Part shown: in pieces, positions 36,704-44,508 of the stretch
Numbering within the stretch: position 1 is the first letter of the stretch
Layout: each line of letters starts with the position of its first letter
Source: a bacterium
Lineage (GTDB): Bacteria > Planctomycetota > UBA1135 > UBA2386
Assembly: GCA_024743115.1 (NCBI GenBank)
Contig: JANSXC010000015.1
Coordinates: 62,001 to 126,000, forward strand
Direction of reading: 5' to 3'
Length of the DNA: 64,000 bases
The notes under the pieces: generated by a model
Database searches by the model: none
The model's input: only the letters and a program-made list of their open reading frames with translations
What the model was told of the DNA's origin: nothing
Position numbers and translations under genes: made by a program

Positions 36704-37525
36704 CTAGCGATCGGGGTGTTCGCCCGGCGGTCGGCGGCGATCCGTGATCGCGAGGCCGAGAATCAAGATCGCGTTCTCCCAGAAGTAGATGTCCATGCTC
36801 CATGCGATCCCCGCGTGGAGTGTGATCGCGAACCCGTAGAACGCCCATCGCAAGCGGCGACCGGTGAGGGCCAGCAAGGCGAGGAGTTCCCCGACCGTCA
36901 TCACGACTGCGCCGGCTGCGACTCCACGTTCGGTGCCTGCTCCCCACTCGGCAAGGAGCAGTCCACCATCGAGATTCAGACCCCGGAGCTCGGCGGCGCG
37001 TGTGGCCATGACCTCGAACATCCCGCCTTCCCAGATCCAACTCAGCCCGCCGCTGGCGATTCGACGGGCGCCGATCAAGCTGTAGCCGAGACACAGCACG
37101 AACAAGATCTGCCGGTGGATGCGGCGCGCCACCGTCGTGGTGGACTCGACGACCGGCGCTCCGGACTCGGCCCAGAAGATCAGGCCGGCGGCATACAGCA
37201 TCGCGAGCTCGGCGTGGTTGTCGTAGCTGCAGTCCCGCTTGATCCACTCGATGAGAAGGATCCCGAGCATGGTGCCCGTAGCGAGTGTGGGGTGGACCGG
37301 ACGCAGGACAGCCCGGCAGCACAGCACCACGGTCAGCCAGCGTATCCCGGCCAGGAGCCAGGCGATTCCGGGCACTTGCATCGCGCGAGCGAGGATCCCC
37401 GTATCCCAGGCCTCGACCGGGAGGTCGACCAGTTCTTCGATGGGGCTCAGCGCCAGCGTGATTGCCCAGCATCCGAACACGGCAAGTCGCAGGCCGGTTG
37501 CGGCCGCGGGGTGTCGGCGGGTCAT
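36704..37525 (-). CDS. Polytopic membrane protein, HTTM-like
   Basis: Multiple TMs; YDNHAELAMLYAAGLIF, LALTGRRLRWAFYGFAITLHAGIAWSMDIYFWENAILILGLA. Confidence 0.5.
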   Translation of the reverse strand: MTRRHPAAATGLRLAVFGCWAITLALSPIEELVDLPVEAWDTGILARAMQVPGIAWLLAGIRWLTVVLCCRAVLRPVHPTLATGTMLGILLIEWIKRDCSYDNHAELAMLYAAGLIFWAESGAPVVESTTTVARRIHRQILFVLCLGYSLIGARRIASGGLSWIWEGGMFEVMATRAAELRGLNLDGGLLLAEWGAGTERGVAAGAVVMTVGELLALLALTGRRLRWAFYGFAITLHAGIAWSMDIYFWENAILILGLAITDRRRPPGEHPDR

Positions 37526-38067
37526 CGGAGATCCACCCAAAGCACACGTCGGCCCGGTGGGCTGTCGGTCGCGGCGACGCGGTGAGCCGCGGCCTCACTT
37601 GCCCAGACCTCGACACGAAGTGGTGGTCGCCCGGTGTCTTGCTGCCAGCGGGTCGCGAGCGCTCGCAGCCATTCGGTGATCGGCCCGCGGCCACCGGGGC
37701 TCTTGGCGATCAACTTGCGCAATACGGCGTGAGCGCGCGAGTGGTCGAGGCTCGGATAGATCTCGTCGAGGGCCACGGGCGTCGGTCCCTCGTCGCTGGC
37801 AACGAACACCGTGTAGATCGTCCTGCCATGGCCCGGGCCGACGTACATGTTCCATTGCGCGAACGGGAACACGTCGCGTTGCAGGAGATGAAACAGCAGG
37901 ATCGAGCCAGCCAGCAGCGCGACACCGATCGCGTTGCGATCCATTCGCGGTAAGGCTGATCGCACCGCCGTTGGAATCGGTCTGCCGTCACGTCGACCCG
38001 CGGATCGGTTTGCGAGGACGAGTAGTCCAACGAGGACGAGCAGGCCCGCCTCGATCACGGTCATCAT
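37522..38067 (-). CDS. Membrane-anchored protein, likely partner of the HTTM-like protein
   Basis: Two TMs, then DVFPFAQWNMYVGPG; 4-bp overlap with next gene. Confidence 0.6.
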   Translation of the reverse strand: MMTVIEAGLLVLVGLLVLANRSAGRRDGRPIPTAVRSALPRMDRNAIGVALLAGSILLFHLLQRDVFPFAQWNMYVGPGHGRTIYTVFVASDEGPTPVALDEIYPSLDHSRAHAVLRKLIAKSPGGRGPITEWLRALATRWQQDTGRPPLRVEVWASEAAAHRVAATDSPPGRRVLWVDLR

Positions 38068-38086
38068 GGCCGATCCCAGGCTCGGA

Positions 38087-40441
38087 TCATCGGACGATGA
38101 CGACTAGCTCGGACGGCTGATCCCCGGCTCGGACGTGCCATTCGAGCGGAGTGCGGTTCTTCGCGATCGAGTAGGTGACTCGGTACTGGCCCGGGCGCAG
38201 GCGGGTCGAGAACGTGACCGGCAGGTCGGGTCCGCACTGCACATTGCGCCGGACTGCGACCCCGTCGTCGTTCTGGATGACCAGCAGGCCCTCTTCCGCG
38301 CCGCTCATTTTCTGGGTGCCGGCGAATCGGATCTTTGCCGCGGTTCCGGGCCTGGCCCGGAACGTGACCTTGCTCGGTCCTGCGATGGAACGGCGGACGA
38401 ATTGGTTGGCGAGTCCCATGCCGCGCAGCTCAAACCAGTAGTTGCCTGTCGCGACGGCGAACTCCGGTGGGGTGATGTCCGCGACGGGTTGACTACCGAG
38501 GAACTGCATGTGCTGATCGGAGAGAATGATGATGCCGCTTGGGGGCGTTCCTGCGCTCTCGTCGGCCGGCAGCACCTCGACCGTAACACGGTGTCCGGCG
38601 GGAGGGATGAGGGGCCCGAGGTCGGTGATCTCCCCGCCCTCCACGACCACGTAGTCCATGAGCAACGGCGCCCGACCCGGGCTGGTAGCTCGCACCTGAT
38701 AGACACCGTCCCGAAGTCGTGGGAACTCGAAGCCGCCATCGTTCTCTCGCGTCAGGGCGATGGTCGATTCGTCGGCGGTTGCGGCTGCGTCCAGTCGGTT
38801 GAGGGCGACCTGGGCGTCTGGCGCGGGGCGATCCTTCGAATCGACGACTCGGCCGACGATCGAGCCCGTGGGGATCTCGCGACTCTCGACCGACCATTCG
38901 ATCGGGTCGCTGTCCGTTGCCAGAACCGTGCGATGGGCCGCCTCGATCGTGTCATGTTGCACGGAGAGGCGGATGTCGCCTGGCGCGACGTTGACGATTC
39001 GAAAGCGGCCGTCGTGCTCGGAGTAGACGGTCGTTGCCCAGCCGCCTTCTTCGCTCGTCGTGCGAGCGAGCAGTTCGGCGGTCGCGACCGGCTGACCGTC
39101 CGCGAGGATCGTGCCTTCGATCACGCGGCCGGGCCGAATGGTGATGTCGGCGACGTGGGGCTTCCCCGCGACTGCCTCGAACGTGTATTCGGCCGTACCG
39201 GCGAGGCGGTGGCGGCCTCGCACGGTGACGTTGCCCGGCTCCAGGCCGCTCAGTCGATAGAAGCCGGTCTCGTCGGTCACGTCGCGCGTGTAGTCGAGTT
39301 GACCTTCTTCGCCGAACGACATCAGGGCCTTGCCGAGAAGCTCCCCATTGGCGTCCCGGACATAGCCCTCGATGCTCGCGCCGGCGGACAGGGCCACGTC
39401 TTTGCCCGTGACGACTCCGTGCGTGATGTGGCACTCCGTGTGAGCGGGAGCGAAATCGCGCGCTCGCACACTCATCGGTGCAAGGCCGACTGGGGCACCA
39501 ATCACCAGGTAGCGACCTTCTTCGTCCGTGATCGATTGGCCGGGTAGTGGTGGGCCGCTCTGGCCCATTACCGAAATCGCATCCAGTCGGCCGTTGCCGA
39601 CTCGGACGACGGCGCCAGCGATCGGTTGGCCGTCGGGGCCGCGAACGGTGCCTTCGACGCTGCCCCCAGGCTGCTCGAGGCGAATCGTCCGCTCGAACGC
39701 GCCGGCTTGTTCGCTCTCGAGGTAATGCATTCGAGAGGCGGCATACCAGCGGGCGCGGGCGCCAACCAAGACCGGATTCAGGCCCGTGGCGAAACGGAAC
39801 TGCCCGGACTCGTCGGTACGGCCGACGACGGCTGCTTCTTCGTCGCGCCAACCGAGCGGTGCCGACAGGATCTCCGCATTCGCGATGGGGTTGTCCTGCT
39901 CGTTCACGACTCGAACCGTGACGCGGTTCAGAACCGGCAGGACCATGGTCCAATGAACGACCTGGTTGCGTTCGATCGTGCGGAACTCGGCGTGGACCGC
40001 GAGGTTTCGGTTCGTCCAGACCTTGTAGCGCCCGGGAGTGACAGGCCCGAACTGCACCATGCCCGTCGCATCGGCGATGCCCCGCCGGGCGTACAGCCGT
40101 GCGTCCTCGCCGAATTTGCGGGCGAAGACCACGACGCCGATGGCCGGTTGGTCGTCGTCGTACACCACGCTGACGGACAGGTCGGCAAGACCGGGCGCCG
40201 CGATGCCGCGATTCACGAGCGCTGCATGGTCACGAAGGTTGGGCGCGGCGGACCGAGCCGACTTTCGCGCGTCGTTCGCGCTCCTGGAGATCGAGTTGTC
40301 CGTCGTGTCCTCGGCTGGCGCTTCGGGGCTCGACTTGCCGCCGACCAGGAGCCAAATCAAGAAGGCGGCACAAGCGCCGAGGGCGACAATCCAGGCGCCG
40401 CTGCTGAACCTCGATGACGGGACGTTCTTGGGGTCGGTCAT
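38087..40441 (-). CDS. Large carboxypeptidase-regulatory-like repeat protein with N-terminal TM
   Basis: Start MTDPKNVPSSRFSSGAWIVALGACAAFLIWLLVGG; repeated GxVxDxxGxPxxxAxV / DExGxYxxxGLxPG blocks. Confidence 0.8.
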   Translation of the reverse strand: MTDPKNVPSSRFSSGAWIVALGACAAFLIWLLVGGKSSPEAPAEDTTDNSISRSANDARKSARSAAPNLRDHAALVNRGIAAPGLADLSVSVVYDDDQPAIGVVVFARKFGEDARLYARRGIADATGMVQFGPVTPGRYKVWTNRNLAVHAEFRTIERNQVVHWTMVLPVLNRVTVRVVNEQDNPIANAEILSAPLGWRDEEAAVVGRTDESGQFRFATGLNPVLVGARARWYAASRMHYLESEQAGAFERTIRLEQPGGSVEGTVRGPDGQPIAGAVVRVGNGRLDAISVMGQSGPPLPGQSITDEEGRYLVIGAPVGLAPMSVRARDFAPAHTECHITHGVVTGKDVALSAGASIEGYVRDANGELLGKALMSFGEEGQLDYTRDVTDETGFYRLSGLEPGNVTVRGRHRLAGTAEYTFEAVAGKPHVADITIRPGRVIEGTILADGQPVATAELLARTTSEEGGWATTVYSEHDGRFRIVNVAPGDIRLSVQHDTIEAAHRTVLATDSDPIEWSVESREIPTGSIVGRVVDSKDRPAPDAQVALNRLDAAATADESTIALTRENDGGFEFPRLRDGVYQVRATSPGRAPLLMDYVVVEGGEITDLGPLIPPAGHRVTVEVLPADESAGTPPSGIIILSDQHMQFLGSQPVADITPPEFAVATGNYWFELRGMGLANQFVRRSIAGPSKVTFRARPGTAAKIRFAGTQKMSGAEEGLLVIQNDDGVAVRRNVQCGPDLPVTFSTRLRPGQYRVTYSIAKNRTPLEWHVRAGDQPSELVVIVR

Positions 40442-41481
40442 GACAGTTTCTCGCGATACAGTTTTCGGCCGGCAACCCAGCAGGCCACGAAAGCAAGCGC
40501 TCCCCAGAACCACGGGTTGGAGAGCACAACGGTCGCAGCGCCCGATTGACGGGCGCGATAGAACGCCCGCATCCAGTCTGCGCGGTCCGTCAGATAGCCC
40601 TCGCCGCCGGGTATCACCTGAGTGAGGGCCGAGGTACGGTGATTGAGCAGCATGGCTCCAGGAGGTGGCGAGAACGCAAGTCCCGATCTCCCGGAGTCGT
40701 CGGCAGCCTCGAGCTGACCGGTGAGACGTCGCGTCGTGCCGACTCCGGCCGCGCGGCTCGACGTATCGAGGTGGAACTCTGCTGGCAGCCAGACTCCGTT
40801 CCCCATGTCGCGTAGCGACGGCACGGTGATTCGCATGCTCTCGTTGCCTTCCGGGTCGAACCAGACCCGTTCCAGCAACGCGAAGCCGCGCTCGTGATCC
40901 AGCCGGCACCGGTCGGCGTTCGGCCGTTCCAACACGATGTCGCCGTCGGCAATGCGGCGGATCCGATATCGCGGATCGGCGACGATCGTTTCCAGATCGA
41001 AGACGGACCCTTCGATCTCGGCACAGGGGTAGCGGCCTCGCAGCGGCCAGAGCCCGATCGCCTGGAAGACGGGGCTGTGCCGAATGTCGGTTGGCACGGC
41101 CGGTTCTTCTTCGTGTGACCAGGCGTAGGAGCGCTTGTTGGGCCATGTTGCCAACCACCCGTCCTCGACGATGATCGTCTTCTGGCGCTCTGTCCAATCG
41201 TCCGAGTCGATCCCTCGTTCACCGTGACTCGAGTCGAAGGCCAGGCCGTGGTCGTGATCGAACCAATACGTGTGGCGCATGTAGCCTCCACGCGACTCGT
41301 GCGCCGGCAACGGGAATCGGTACTGCAGCCGCATGACGCCGAGGCGTTGTCTCGCTGCGGCGAGCTGCTGGACGATGGCCTGTCGGTCGGTCTCCCCATC
41401 GGGGTGACCGGCTTGCTCGCGGTCGCCGCCACCGCATGAGCCGAGCGTCGTCAACAAGGTGATCAGGGTCGGGATCGTCAT
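40438..41481 (-). CDS. Hypothetical lipoprotein with C-terminal TM
   Basis: MTIPTLITLLTTLGSCGGG lipobox; C-terminal NPWFWGALAFVACWVAGRKLYREKLS; 4-bp overlaps on both sides. Confidence 0.68.
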   Translation of the reverse strand: MTIPTLITLLTTLGSCGGGDREQAGHPDGETDRQAIVQQLAAARQRLGVMRLQYRFPLPAHESRGGYMRHTYWFDHDHGLAFDSSHGERGIDSDDWTERQKTIIVEDGWLATWPNKRSYAWSHEEEPAVPTDIRHSPVFQAIGLWPLRGRYPCAEIEGSVFDLETIVADPRYRIRRIADGDIVLERPNADRCRLDHERGFALLERVWFDPEGNESMRITVPSLRDMGNGVWLPAEFHLDTSSRAAGVGTTRRLTGQLEAADDSGRSGLAFSPPPGAMLLNHRTSALTQVIPGGEGYLTDRADWMRAFYRARQSGAATVVLSNPWFWGALAFVACWVAGRKLYREKLS

Positions 41482-42194
41482 GACCGTCCTCCGCTGCGCG
41501 CCGTCCAGCCGCCGATGCCGAATCCGAGGAGCGCCAGGCCCAGCACGACGCTCCAAATGGACCAACCGGGCGCCTCGCCGGGTTGGTCCGCCGAGCAGAT
41601 CACGGCGCCGGACCAAACCTGCATCAGGTCCTCGAGCGTGATTTCGGCGGGGATGCCGGTGACACCATCGATCACCGTTGCCGTTCCGGCCGTCTCGTTG
41701 ATTGCGGCGACGGTCACGACCCGTCCACCGTCCAGTCGGTCCTTGGCCACGGGATCGAGGTGCAGGATCACGGGAAGCGCGAGGCGCGGGAGTTCCTCCG
41801 GCGATGCCGCGCCGACTCGGACGGGAAAGCCGAGCTCGTTTGCGGCCGCTGCGACCGTCGCCATGGTTGCGCCGCCTTCGGGAACCTCGACGGCGCGGGC
41901 AACTCGTTCGTAATCCACGTCGTGACCGGCTCCGCGGAGCATGAGGAACAGTGCGTTGGCTCCGGCATTGCGGGCGGTGCGCCAATAGCCCGGCCGTGGT
42001 GAGTGAATCGAATCGTCAGCAGGCGCCGTCAATGGGATGCCGGCAAACAGTGGGCTGCTGGGGGTTTTCGCGGTCGACGGCTTTGCCGCGGATGCTTCGG
42101 CGGCGGTTCGGGTCGGGGCGTCCTGGGCCGTGTTCCCGACAAGGAGCTGCGACCCCACGATGAGCAGGCTCAGCACTCGGATCTGCGATGACAT
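41478..42194 (-). CDS. C39-peptidase-like pseudoenzyme with C-terminal TM
   Basis: NAGANALFLMLRGAGHDVDYERVARAVEVPEGGATMATVAAAANELGFPVRV...LALPVILHL...GTATVIDGVTG...VWSGAVI resembles C39 fold; Cys position is Ala. Confidence 0.65.
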   Translation of the reverse strand: MSSQIRVLSLLIVGSQLLVGNTAQDAPTRTAAEASAAKPSTAKTPSSPLFAGIPLTAPADDSIHSPRPGYWRTARNAGANALFLMLRGAGHDVDYERVARAVEVPEGGATMATVAAAANELGFPVRVGAASPEELPRLALPVILHLDPVAKDRLDGGRVVTVAAINETAGTATVIDGVTGIPAEITLEDLMQVWSGAVICSADQPGEAPGWSIWSVVLGLALLGFGIGGWTARSGGRS

Positions 42195-42254
42195 GACTGG
42201 ATCTCAGTAGGAGGTGCAGCGAGCCATCGTCATGGCTCGCTGCGAATCAGCCGA

Positions 42255-42623
42255 TCACTCGACCGGAACCGCGCAGAACGCGACGTGCTCGAACACGTGG
42301 CTGCAGCCGATGAAGTGCTCACCGTCTTCGGTGCAGTACTTCTTCGTGTCCTCGACGACCCGAGCGTTCTTGACCTCGTCGCCCTTGCGGGCGCCGGGCG
42401 TCGGCCACGGGCAGTGGTGGTTGACGTTGCAGCGGGTGCGCTTCACACCCGGGCAGTCGATGTCGAACGTCGAGGCGACGAAGCTGGGGGCACCAGCGGC
42501 CGTCACGTCGACATTCACGCGCGAGTCGGGGCTGACCGCGCTCATGCACAGCACGCTGACACCAGCGGCGGCGAGAAGAACCGGCGACAAGCACCGGGAC
42601 GAAACAAACTTGGCAAGACTCAT
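42255..42623 (-). CDS. Small exported Cys-rich protein (122 aa, six Cys in mature part)
   Basis: MSLAKFVSSRCLSPVLLAAAGVSVLCMSAVSPDS... with mature C residues in DIDC, TRC, NHHC, KKYC, IGC, AFC; AAGGAAG ribosome-binding site before ATG. Confidence 0.65.
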   Translation of the reverse strand: MSLAKFVSSRCLSPVLLAAAGVSVLCMSAVSPDSRVNVDVTAAGAPSFVASTFDIDCPGVKRTRCNVNHHCPWPTPGARKGDEVKNARVVEDTKKYCTEDGEHFIGCSHVFEHVAFCAVPVE

Positions 42624-42661
42624 AGTCTTCCTTCGTTGGGGTTTGGCAGCCTCGGTGACGA

Positions 42662-43828
42662 TCACCTCAGCTGCCGGACTACGCATGCAGCATGCGTAAG
42701 GGGACAGAGCTGGGCCTTGCACTCAGCCGGGGTGGCTTCGCGCAAGCGTCCCAACAACCAAAGACCCGCCCGTCGAAGCACGTCGTCTTCAACGGACAGA
42801 TCACGGGGGAGGTAGAGCAACGATTCGGCGAGATGGCCGGTCACGAGCACCGATCCGATCTGTTCCGGATCGGACTCTGTCACGGCGGCGTCCGGTTGCC
42901 CGCGCCACCAGGTGTGCGGCCAGCTGCCATCGCTTCGTTGGCTGGCAAGAGCCAGTCGGGTGTGGATCTCGAGGTGGCGGCGCGCACGGTCTCGCGCGGC
43001 GCTGCTCAGTACGGAACGGTCCGCATCGACCCGAACGAGCAAGTTGATCGCGTGGAACAAGTGCGTGCCGCCACACGAAGCTCGGCTGATGTCGCGACCG
43101 ATCAACTCGTCCGCAACGTCGTCGAACCGGAAGATCTCACCGTATCGATTGCGCCAGCTGCCCCGATCGGCCAGGTAGTGCATGGCCGCGATGCACTTCC
43201 ATTCGATCTCACCACGAAAGTCGAACCCCGCGACCGCGTCGGCGAGCACGTCTTCGACCCGATAGACCGTTCCCTTCAGACGAATCGGCGAGTCGAGCGG
43301 CACGCCCATCTCCGCGAGCGACGCAAACACCTGCCCCTGATGCGATTCGCGCATCTTGCCGGCGACCGGATACAGCGGATTGGCGCGGCGATACCGGATG
43401 CCGTAGCGGCTCGGGAAGATCAGCGGAACGCGAAACGCAGCGCGAGCTCGTTCCGCGTGAAAGAACATGTCCAGCAGCTTCGTCGGTTCGACGTCACGGC
43501 TGTCGTCGTCGGCGGTGGCGTGGAGGTCGGTGCCGAGCAACCGCATCGCATGCAGGCAGCCCGAGGGACCGAGTCTCTGTGGTGCGAGTGACGGAAGGAT
43601 CTTGTCGACGAGGGTTTGCCAGTCGGCGTCCGAACATGTGAGCAGGTGACGCCGTTCGGGCTCGATCACGAACGGCGTACCGGTGTCTGCAGCGGAATCG
43701 CTGTCTGCGGCCTGCACTTCCCCGTTGCTGCATCCCCCCGACAGACCGGTGCCGAGGATCAGCATGATCACCAGCGGCGGCCTTACGACCGTCGCAGCGA
43801 ACCAGTTTCGCGAGAGAGTTCGGGGCAT
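42662..43828 (-). CDS. Lipoprotein with alpha/alpha-toroid (terpenoid-cyclase-like) C-terminal region
   Basis: MLILGTGLSGGCSNG lipobox; ARRHLEIHTRLALASQRSDGSWPHTWW...VLVTGHLAESLLYLP. Confidence 0.6.
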   Translation of the reverse strand: MPRTLSRNWFAATVVRPPLVIMLILGTGLSGGCSNGEVQAADSDSAADTGTPFVIEPERRHLLTCSDADWQTLVDKILPSLAPQRLGPSGCLHAMRLLGTDLHATADDDSRDVEPTKLLDMFFHAERARAAFRVPLIFPSRYGIRYRRANPLYPVAGKMRESHQGQVFASLAEMGVPLDSPIRLKGTVYRVEDVLADAVAGFDFRGEIEWKCIAAMHYLADRGSWRNRYGEIFRFDDVADELIGRDISRASCGGTHLFHAINLLVRVDADRSVLSSAARDRARRHLEIHTRLALASQRSDGSWPHTWWRGQPDAAVTESDPEQIGSVLVTGHLAESLLYLPRDLSVEDDVLRRAGLWLLGRLREATPAECKAQLCPLTHAACVVRQLR

Positions 43829-44312: not shown

Positions 44313-44508
44313 CTACTGGCGATAGAGCCCCTTGAGGTCGTCGAGGTGCGTGTCGACGTAGTAGATCGTATGCCAGTCGTCGCTGCCCGCCGGATCCAAC
44401 TTCGACGCGCTTTTGCAGCACGACCACGAAGGCCTCGTGGGCCAGGTCTTCGACCCGGTCGGCGGTCACTCCCAGCACGTAGAGGCAGCGCCGCAACATG
44501 GCCGCGTG
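44313..44508 (-). pseudogene. Remnant of ECF sigma factor region 2, frame-shifted into a second short C-terminal fragment
   Basis: HAAMLRRCLYVLGVTADRVEDLAHEAFVVVLQKR then, in another frame, LDPAGSDDWHTIYYVDTHLDDLKGLYRQ-stop. Confidence 0.45.

Follow-up and report, generated by a model that had tools for sequence, protein, structure and literature searches.

A cysteine-rich protein operon of a Planctomycetota bacterium as a probable derived member of a system of exported C39 proteins and double-glycine precursors

The seven-gene operon analysed here is probably a derived member of a Planctomycetota system in which Cys-rich precursors with double-glycine leaders would be exported by Sec and then matured outside the cytoplasm by a C39 peptidase, the C39 domain of this operon having turned non-proteolytic. 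ABC peptide exporters are the textbook setting of both double-glycine leaders and C39 domains. The wider proposal, which is considered reasonably likely, is that Planctomycetota possess a two-signal, ABC-independent double-glycine route, and that in at least one lineage the C39 peptidase has become a non-proteolytic partner while the leader eroded in parallel. The system is invisible from the window alone (the whole stretch of 64,000 nucleotides analysed, G000:C17:62001-126000) because the window copy lacks both the leader and the active site.

Seven intact ORFs, P0001 to P0007, span positions 36704-43828 of the window (Table 1). The junction spacings in order from P0001 to P0007 are +38, +60, -4, -4, +19 and -4 nt, which confirms the seven minus-strand genes, three 4-bp overlaps and gaps of 19, 60 and 38 nt reported in a preliminary description of this DNA. 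Convincing matches to curated families were obtained only for P0003 (Peptidase_C39) and P0005 (CarboxypepD_reg). The profile search against curated families matched P0005 to PF13620 with an E-value of 2e-43 over 5 stretches, and its earlier naming as a carboxypeptidase-regulatory-like protein was correct. Promoter and terminator scans at the operon gave results near background. Upstream of the operon, a short ECF sigma-factor-like stretch (LYVLGVTADRVEDLAHEAFVVVLQK) is present on the minus strand at 44370-44480; it is possibly a remnant and gave no Pfam match.

Table 1. Genes of the operon and codons at the C39 catalytic columns (positions in the window)
Feature	Position	Strand	Description	Remark
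P0001	42662..43828	-	exported alpha-toroid lipoprotein, 388 aa	core gene
P0002	42255..42623	-	Sec-exported Cys-rich protein, 122 aa	core gene; no recognisable double-glycine leader
P0003	41478..42194	-	exported C39-like pseudopeptidase, C-terminal TM, 238 aa	core gene
A77 codon of P0003	41964..41966	-	catalytic Cys column of C39	
R158 codon of P0003	41721..41723	-	catalytic His column of C39	
P0004	40438..41481	-	LolA-fold (predicted) lipoprotein/exported protein, C-terminal TM, 347 aa	core gene
P0005	38087..40441	-	CarboxypepD_reg repeat protein, N-terminal TM, 784 aa	local accessory
P0006	37522..38067	-	membrane protein with FPFAQWNMY motif, 181 aa	local accessory
P0007	36704..37525	-	multi-TM protein, 273 aa	local accessory

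The conservation of the operon was analysed in related genomes. In the single-sequence search of 101 relatives P0003 matched G030, and P0002 matched only itself because the peptide evolves too fast, so that the gene neighbourhood was needed to follow it. The scan of genome contigs recovered the G030 locus only. The operon is rare, being found in 2 of the 154 genomes of the window's class, and G030 is the second genome of the window's family that carries it. At this locus (L005) the order of the core is permuted: the Cys-rich exported ORF, the C39-like gene and the lipoprotein lie on one strand with the toroid, which is set apart from them by a small membrane protein of another kind. The identity between the window and G030 is 34% for the Cys-rich protein, 35% for the C39-like protein, 27% for the lipoprotein and 35% for the toroid; P0002 and its G030 counterpart have KYCT..G....GC in common. 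The G030 copy is intact and has kept the conserved Cys and toroid residues. P0005 is absent from it, its place being held by the unrelated small membrane protein, and no convincing homolog of P0006 or P0007 was found in the 154 class genomes. The conserved core thus comprises the toroid, the Cys-rich exported protein, the C39-like protein with TM and the lipoprotein with TM, the other three genes being local; the earlier treatment of all seven genes as one unit did not hold.

The toroid profile matched 39 of 392 genomes of the phylum. The whole core is present at some of these loci (L042, L043 and L061), and the toroid, C39 and most of the remaining core at L092, L155, L156, L157, L158, L160 and L163. 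The order toroid-peptide-C39-LolA-like is common to the window, L042, L043, L155, L157 and L158. The neighbourhood of peptide, C39 and lipoprotein with the toroid recurs in many other genomes and is more than chance. The preliminary description had named gene neighbourhood as its own refuting test, and Cys-rich ORFs do adjoin C39-like genes in other genomes.

The active site of P0003 was analysed against the Peptidase_C39 family (PF03412), which it matched with an E-value of 2.1e-7 and 31.2 bits, above the curated cut-off of 22. A77 occupies the catalytic Cys column and R158 the His column, and Asp176 is kept; the label of C39-like pseudoenzyme given earlier was therefore apt. The G030 C39 has Ala for the catalytic Cys and no His, so that both proteins lack the catalytic pair of an active C39. 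The architecture of P0003 is that of an exported stand-alone C39, with a predicted N-terminal signal-like segment, one C-terminal TM and a positive tail. No other Peptidase_C39 was found in G030 or in G000, the latter searched as a 6.95-Mb draft of 90% completeness, and hence no active C39 can be seen that might act in trans. In the C39 tree the window and G030 domains pair (95/89); the deeper nodes are weakly supported, so that an active ancestor of the window domain is indistinguishable from a degenerate tandem one of the kind seen in L042, L043 and L158. These three toroid-type loci (L158:6658-7961, L042:7894-9078 and L043:10612-11949) hold an active C39 and a degenerate second C39, in tandem in one protein or in adjacent genes. 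A separate case is given by the long gene pairs L117:6051-10040 and L118:6348-10210 of G345, probably of ABC-exporter type, where one C39 is active and that of its neighbour degenerate.

The Cys, His and Asp columns are kept in the C39 domains of distant relatives (72 domains), and the residues are retained in most relatives. A hydrophobicity rule, which also lets in a few unrelated ORFs, gave 42 ORFs from 30 genomes as exported C39 proteins with a C-terminal TM. C39 matches within long ABC exporters were left out of the analysis. The mean charge after the C-terminal helix of the exported proteins was +3.0 compared to +1.1 before it. The structure of ComA (5xe8) matched the family profile with an E-value of 5e-12. 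Fusions of exported C39 to DUF1573 (8/39) and to rhodanese (5/39) were observed, and MauE genes adjoin C39 at some loci. At L113:6430-7656, L114:6577-7800, L177:6700-7773 and L116:5966-7006 one protein joins the exported C39 with TM helices and a rhodanese domain. A MauE gene stands next door in L116 and L105, which points to thiol chemistry on Cys-rich proteins.

The small neighbours of C39 carry a Sec-like signal followed by a second leader that ends in GG, GA or GS just before the first core Cys. Examples are LSLDQLQAVTGG-GDC at L107, LTNTEMQRVLGG-AC at L176 and VSDSEASALIGG at L155; the L107 leader also gave a weak match, below the family cutoff, to NCBIfam RiPP_CCRG-2. Tandem peptide genes occur at L107, L113, L114 and L115. 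G[GAS] at no more than 10 residues from the first core Cys was found in 35 of 66 ORFs near C39 and in 8 of 65 controls (Fisher p 7e-7), a contrast that is lowered by obvious spurious ORFs among those picked by the mechanical rule, is raised by some related loci within the set and is partly tied to the data, the rule having been adopted after inspection. Shuffles under the same rule gave 16.3 near C39 (maximum 26 of 500) and 8.1 in controls. About half of the mechanically picked C39 neighbours lack the motif, some of them being spurious ORFs. A stricter motif, hydrophobic at both -7 and -4 (15/66 compared to 5/67), missed visible cases and was dropped.

The positional pattern of the leader is independent of the rule on G[GAS] near Cys. 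With G[GAS] as the sole anchor for the alignment of 30 of these ORFs, hydrophobic residues were present at -12 in 73% (expected 32%) and at -4 in 80% (expected 33%), and acidic or amide residues at -8 in 57% (expected 23%). These enrichments were reached in 0 of 2000 shuffles; position -7 showed no excess of LIVMF. The leaders of peptidase-containing ABC transporters (PCAT), which terminate in GG, GA or GS, contact C39 through -4, -7, -12 and -15 (PMC7018657), and the pattern of the Planctomycetota peptides agrees with these leader positions.

The two peptides of the window's family differ from this picture. The best leader score is 4.2 for P0002 and 0.3 for the G030 peptide, both at shuffle level, whereas the other peptides, each left out in turn, have a median of 12.2. 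A GG, GA or GS end with hydrophobic -4, -7 and -12 is seen in many peptides of related loci and is lacking in P0002. Loss of the C39 residues together with a leader at shuffle level suggests that enzyme and motif have eroded together. The erosion is incomplete, as the G030 peptide retains a bare GG although the G030 C39 is dead.

The AlphaFold model of P0001 is an all-alpha toroid (pLDDT 82.6), as the preliminary description had proposed; structural comparison brought up complement thioester domains, transcobalamin and GH105 with E-values no better than 0.04, too weak to make any enzymatic role more than a guess. H93, H163, E207, C252, G254, H256, H332 and H379 are invariant over 20 sequences. 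Lanthionine cyclase and prenyltransferase activities, considered for the CxGxH and THA motifs, were rejected as the structural matches are too weak. Toroid homologs adjoin C39 in G030 and at no fewer than ten other loci. A second setting of the family is seen at L044-L060, where toroid paralogs (L045:8949-10139, L058:9402-10592 and L060:9294-10508) lie beside Tad-pilus-like genes with CpaB/CpaF-like and Flp-pilin-like small proteins. No C39 match stands near these toroid loci among the matches listed, and they were set aside as another branch, their neighbourhoods being largely Tad-pilus-like. P0004, rightly called a lipoprotein with TM, is now refined, by AlphaFold prediction (pLDDT 84.3), to a half barrel of LolA type that carries a C-terminal helix; the predicted model matched the LolA superfamily structure 3buu with an E-value of 8.5e-8 and TMt 0.52. 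Homologs of P0004 stand beside C39 at many loci.

The presence of a Sec signal and a GG leader on the same peptides, next to an exported C39 without an ABC exporter, suggests Sec export followed by extracytoplasmic processing. The precursor would carry two stacked N-terminal signals, the Sec signal and then the double-glycine leader. Sec would export the Cys-rich precursor and the signal would be removed. A separate exported C39, anchored by its C-terminal helix, may then, outside the inner membrane, read the leader and, from motif and architecture, would cut after G[GAS] to release the Cys-rich core. The LolA-fold membrane protein is, from its predicted fold, a likely carrier or holdase, and toroid, DUF1573, rhodanese or MauE-like partners may assist at some loci, the rhodanese and MauE partners through thiol handling. 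In the window lineage proteolysis would have been lost and the leader eroded while the core operon persists, and the dead C39 most likely serves to bind or tether the Cys-rich protein. The nearest analogue is HlyB, whose C39-like domain holds its substrate without cutting it. From the loss of Cys and His, the lack of another Peptidase_C39 and the loss of the leader, we infer a similar shift of the window domain to a non-proteolytic binding role. The maturation role suggested earlier for the Cys-rich protein is thus supported as regards handling by a C39-like partner, since Cys-rich exported ORFs adjoin exported C39 phylum-wide and often have a C39-type leader; the part that made the seven genes one unit is not.

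Three other readings were weighed. The window peptide may still be matured by another protease, the C39-like domain merely presenting it; no further C39 domain was found in the genome, and the authors of the FapD study speak of a chaperone role for the catalytically dead C39-like domains found in T1SS (PMC5557850), but the operon is without a protease gene and this reading is judged improbable. It is still less probable that the C39 and Cys-rich genes are neighbours for some other reason, with an incidental GG and a C39 that targets the LolA-like partner or a protein elsewhere. Many loci do hold further exported proteins (DUF1573, LolA-like), and the substrate of FapD, a known periplasmic C39, is unproven (PMC5557850); however, the motif exceeds the controls, the -12/-8/-4 pattern is present, and the tandem peptide copies of L107, L113 and L114 retain the motif.

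That the window operon is a decaying remnant whose genes drift without function after C39 cleavage was lost is very doubtful. The lost catalytic residues and leader and the rarity of the operon in the class are in accordance with decay, but seven intact ORFs with tight 4-bp overlaps argue against it, as does the G030 copy, which is intact at about 35% identity with its conserved Cys and toroid residues kept.

The favoured system, with extracytoplasmic C39 maturation, was compared with known ones. It shares with PCAT (ComA, PCAT1, LahT) the C39 fold, the catalytic residues in active relatives and the leader features at -4, -12 and G[GAS]. In PCAT the C39 is fused to an ABC permease and ATPase, whereas P0003 has no transporter or ATPase domain; here a Sec signal is present on the C39 as well as on its substrate, the predicted site of processing lies outside the cytoplasm, the mature parts are larger and Cys-rich, and the window copy is catalytically dead. 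Relative to the C39-like domain of RTX exporters such as HlyB (3zua), P0003 also has a C39 fold without the catalytic Cys, and the likeness in substrate holding is putative; that domain belongs to an ABC exporter and lies in the cytoplasm, whereas P0003 is exported and stand-alone. P0004 resembles the LolA/LolB/RseB superfamily in its predicted fold and differs in its C-terminal membrane helix, its linkage to the C39 gene and the lack of a significant Pfam match by sequence. The closest precedent is FapD of the Pseudomonas Fap amyloid system, a C39 protease whose work in the periplasm depends on its Cys (PMC5557850). Like FapD, P0003 is a Sec-exported stand-alone C39, export being predicted for P0003. 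The substrate of FapD is unclear and the Fap proteins have no canonical C39 leader (PMC5557850), whereas Cys-rich double-glycine proteins are adjacent here. Where the Fap operon has FapA-F, the genes here are those for the toroid, Cys-rich, LolA-like and CarboxypepD_reg proteins, none for an amyloid, a FapF barrel or the like having been noted, and the C39 has a C-terminal TM. A literature search, with most subscription papers outside its reach, gave no description of an exported C39 with GG peptides in Planctomycetota, and the gene system is widespread and apparently undescribed.

A GG leader stacked behind a Sec signal beside an exported C39, phylum-wide, implies a separate maturation route for Cys-rich peptides. 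Candidate pairs of substrate and protease are present at these loci by the dozen, with clear candidate substrates, whereas the only periplasmic C39 studied so far, FapD, is without a proven one. The window lineage would be a natural case of the change from peptidase to pseudopeptidase alongside erosion of the motif of its substrate. If the proposal is true, an exported, membrane-anchored C39 would mature Cys-rich exported proteins that form a large and diverse class.
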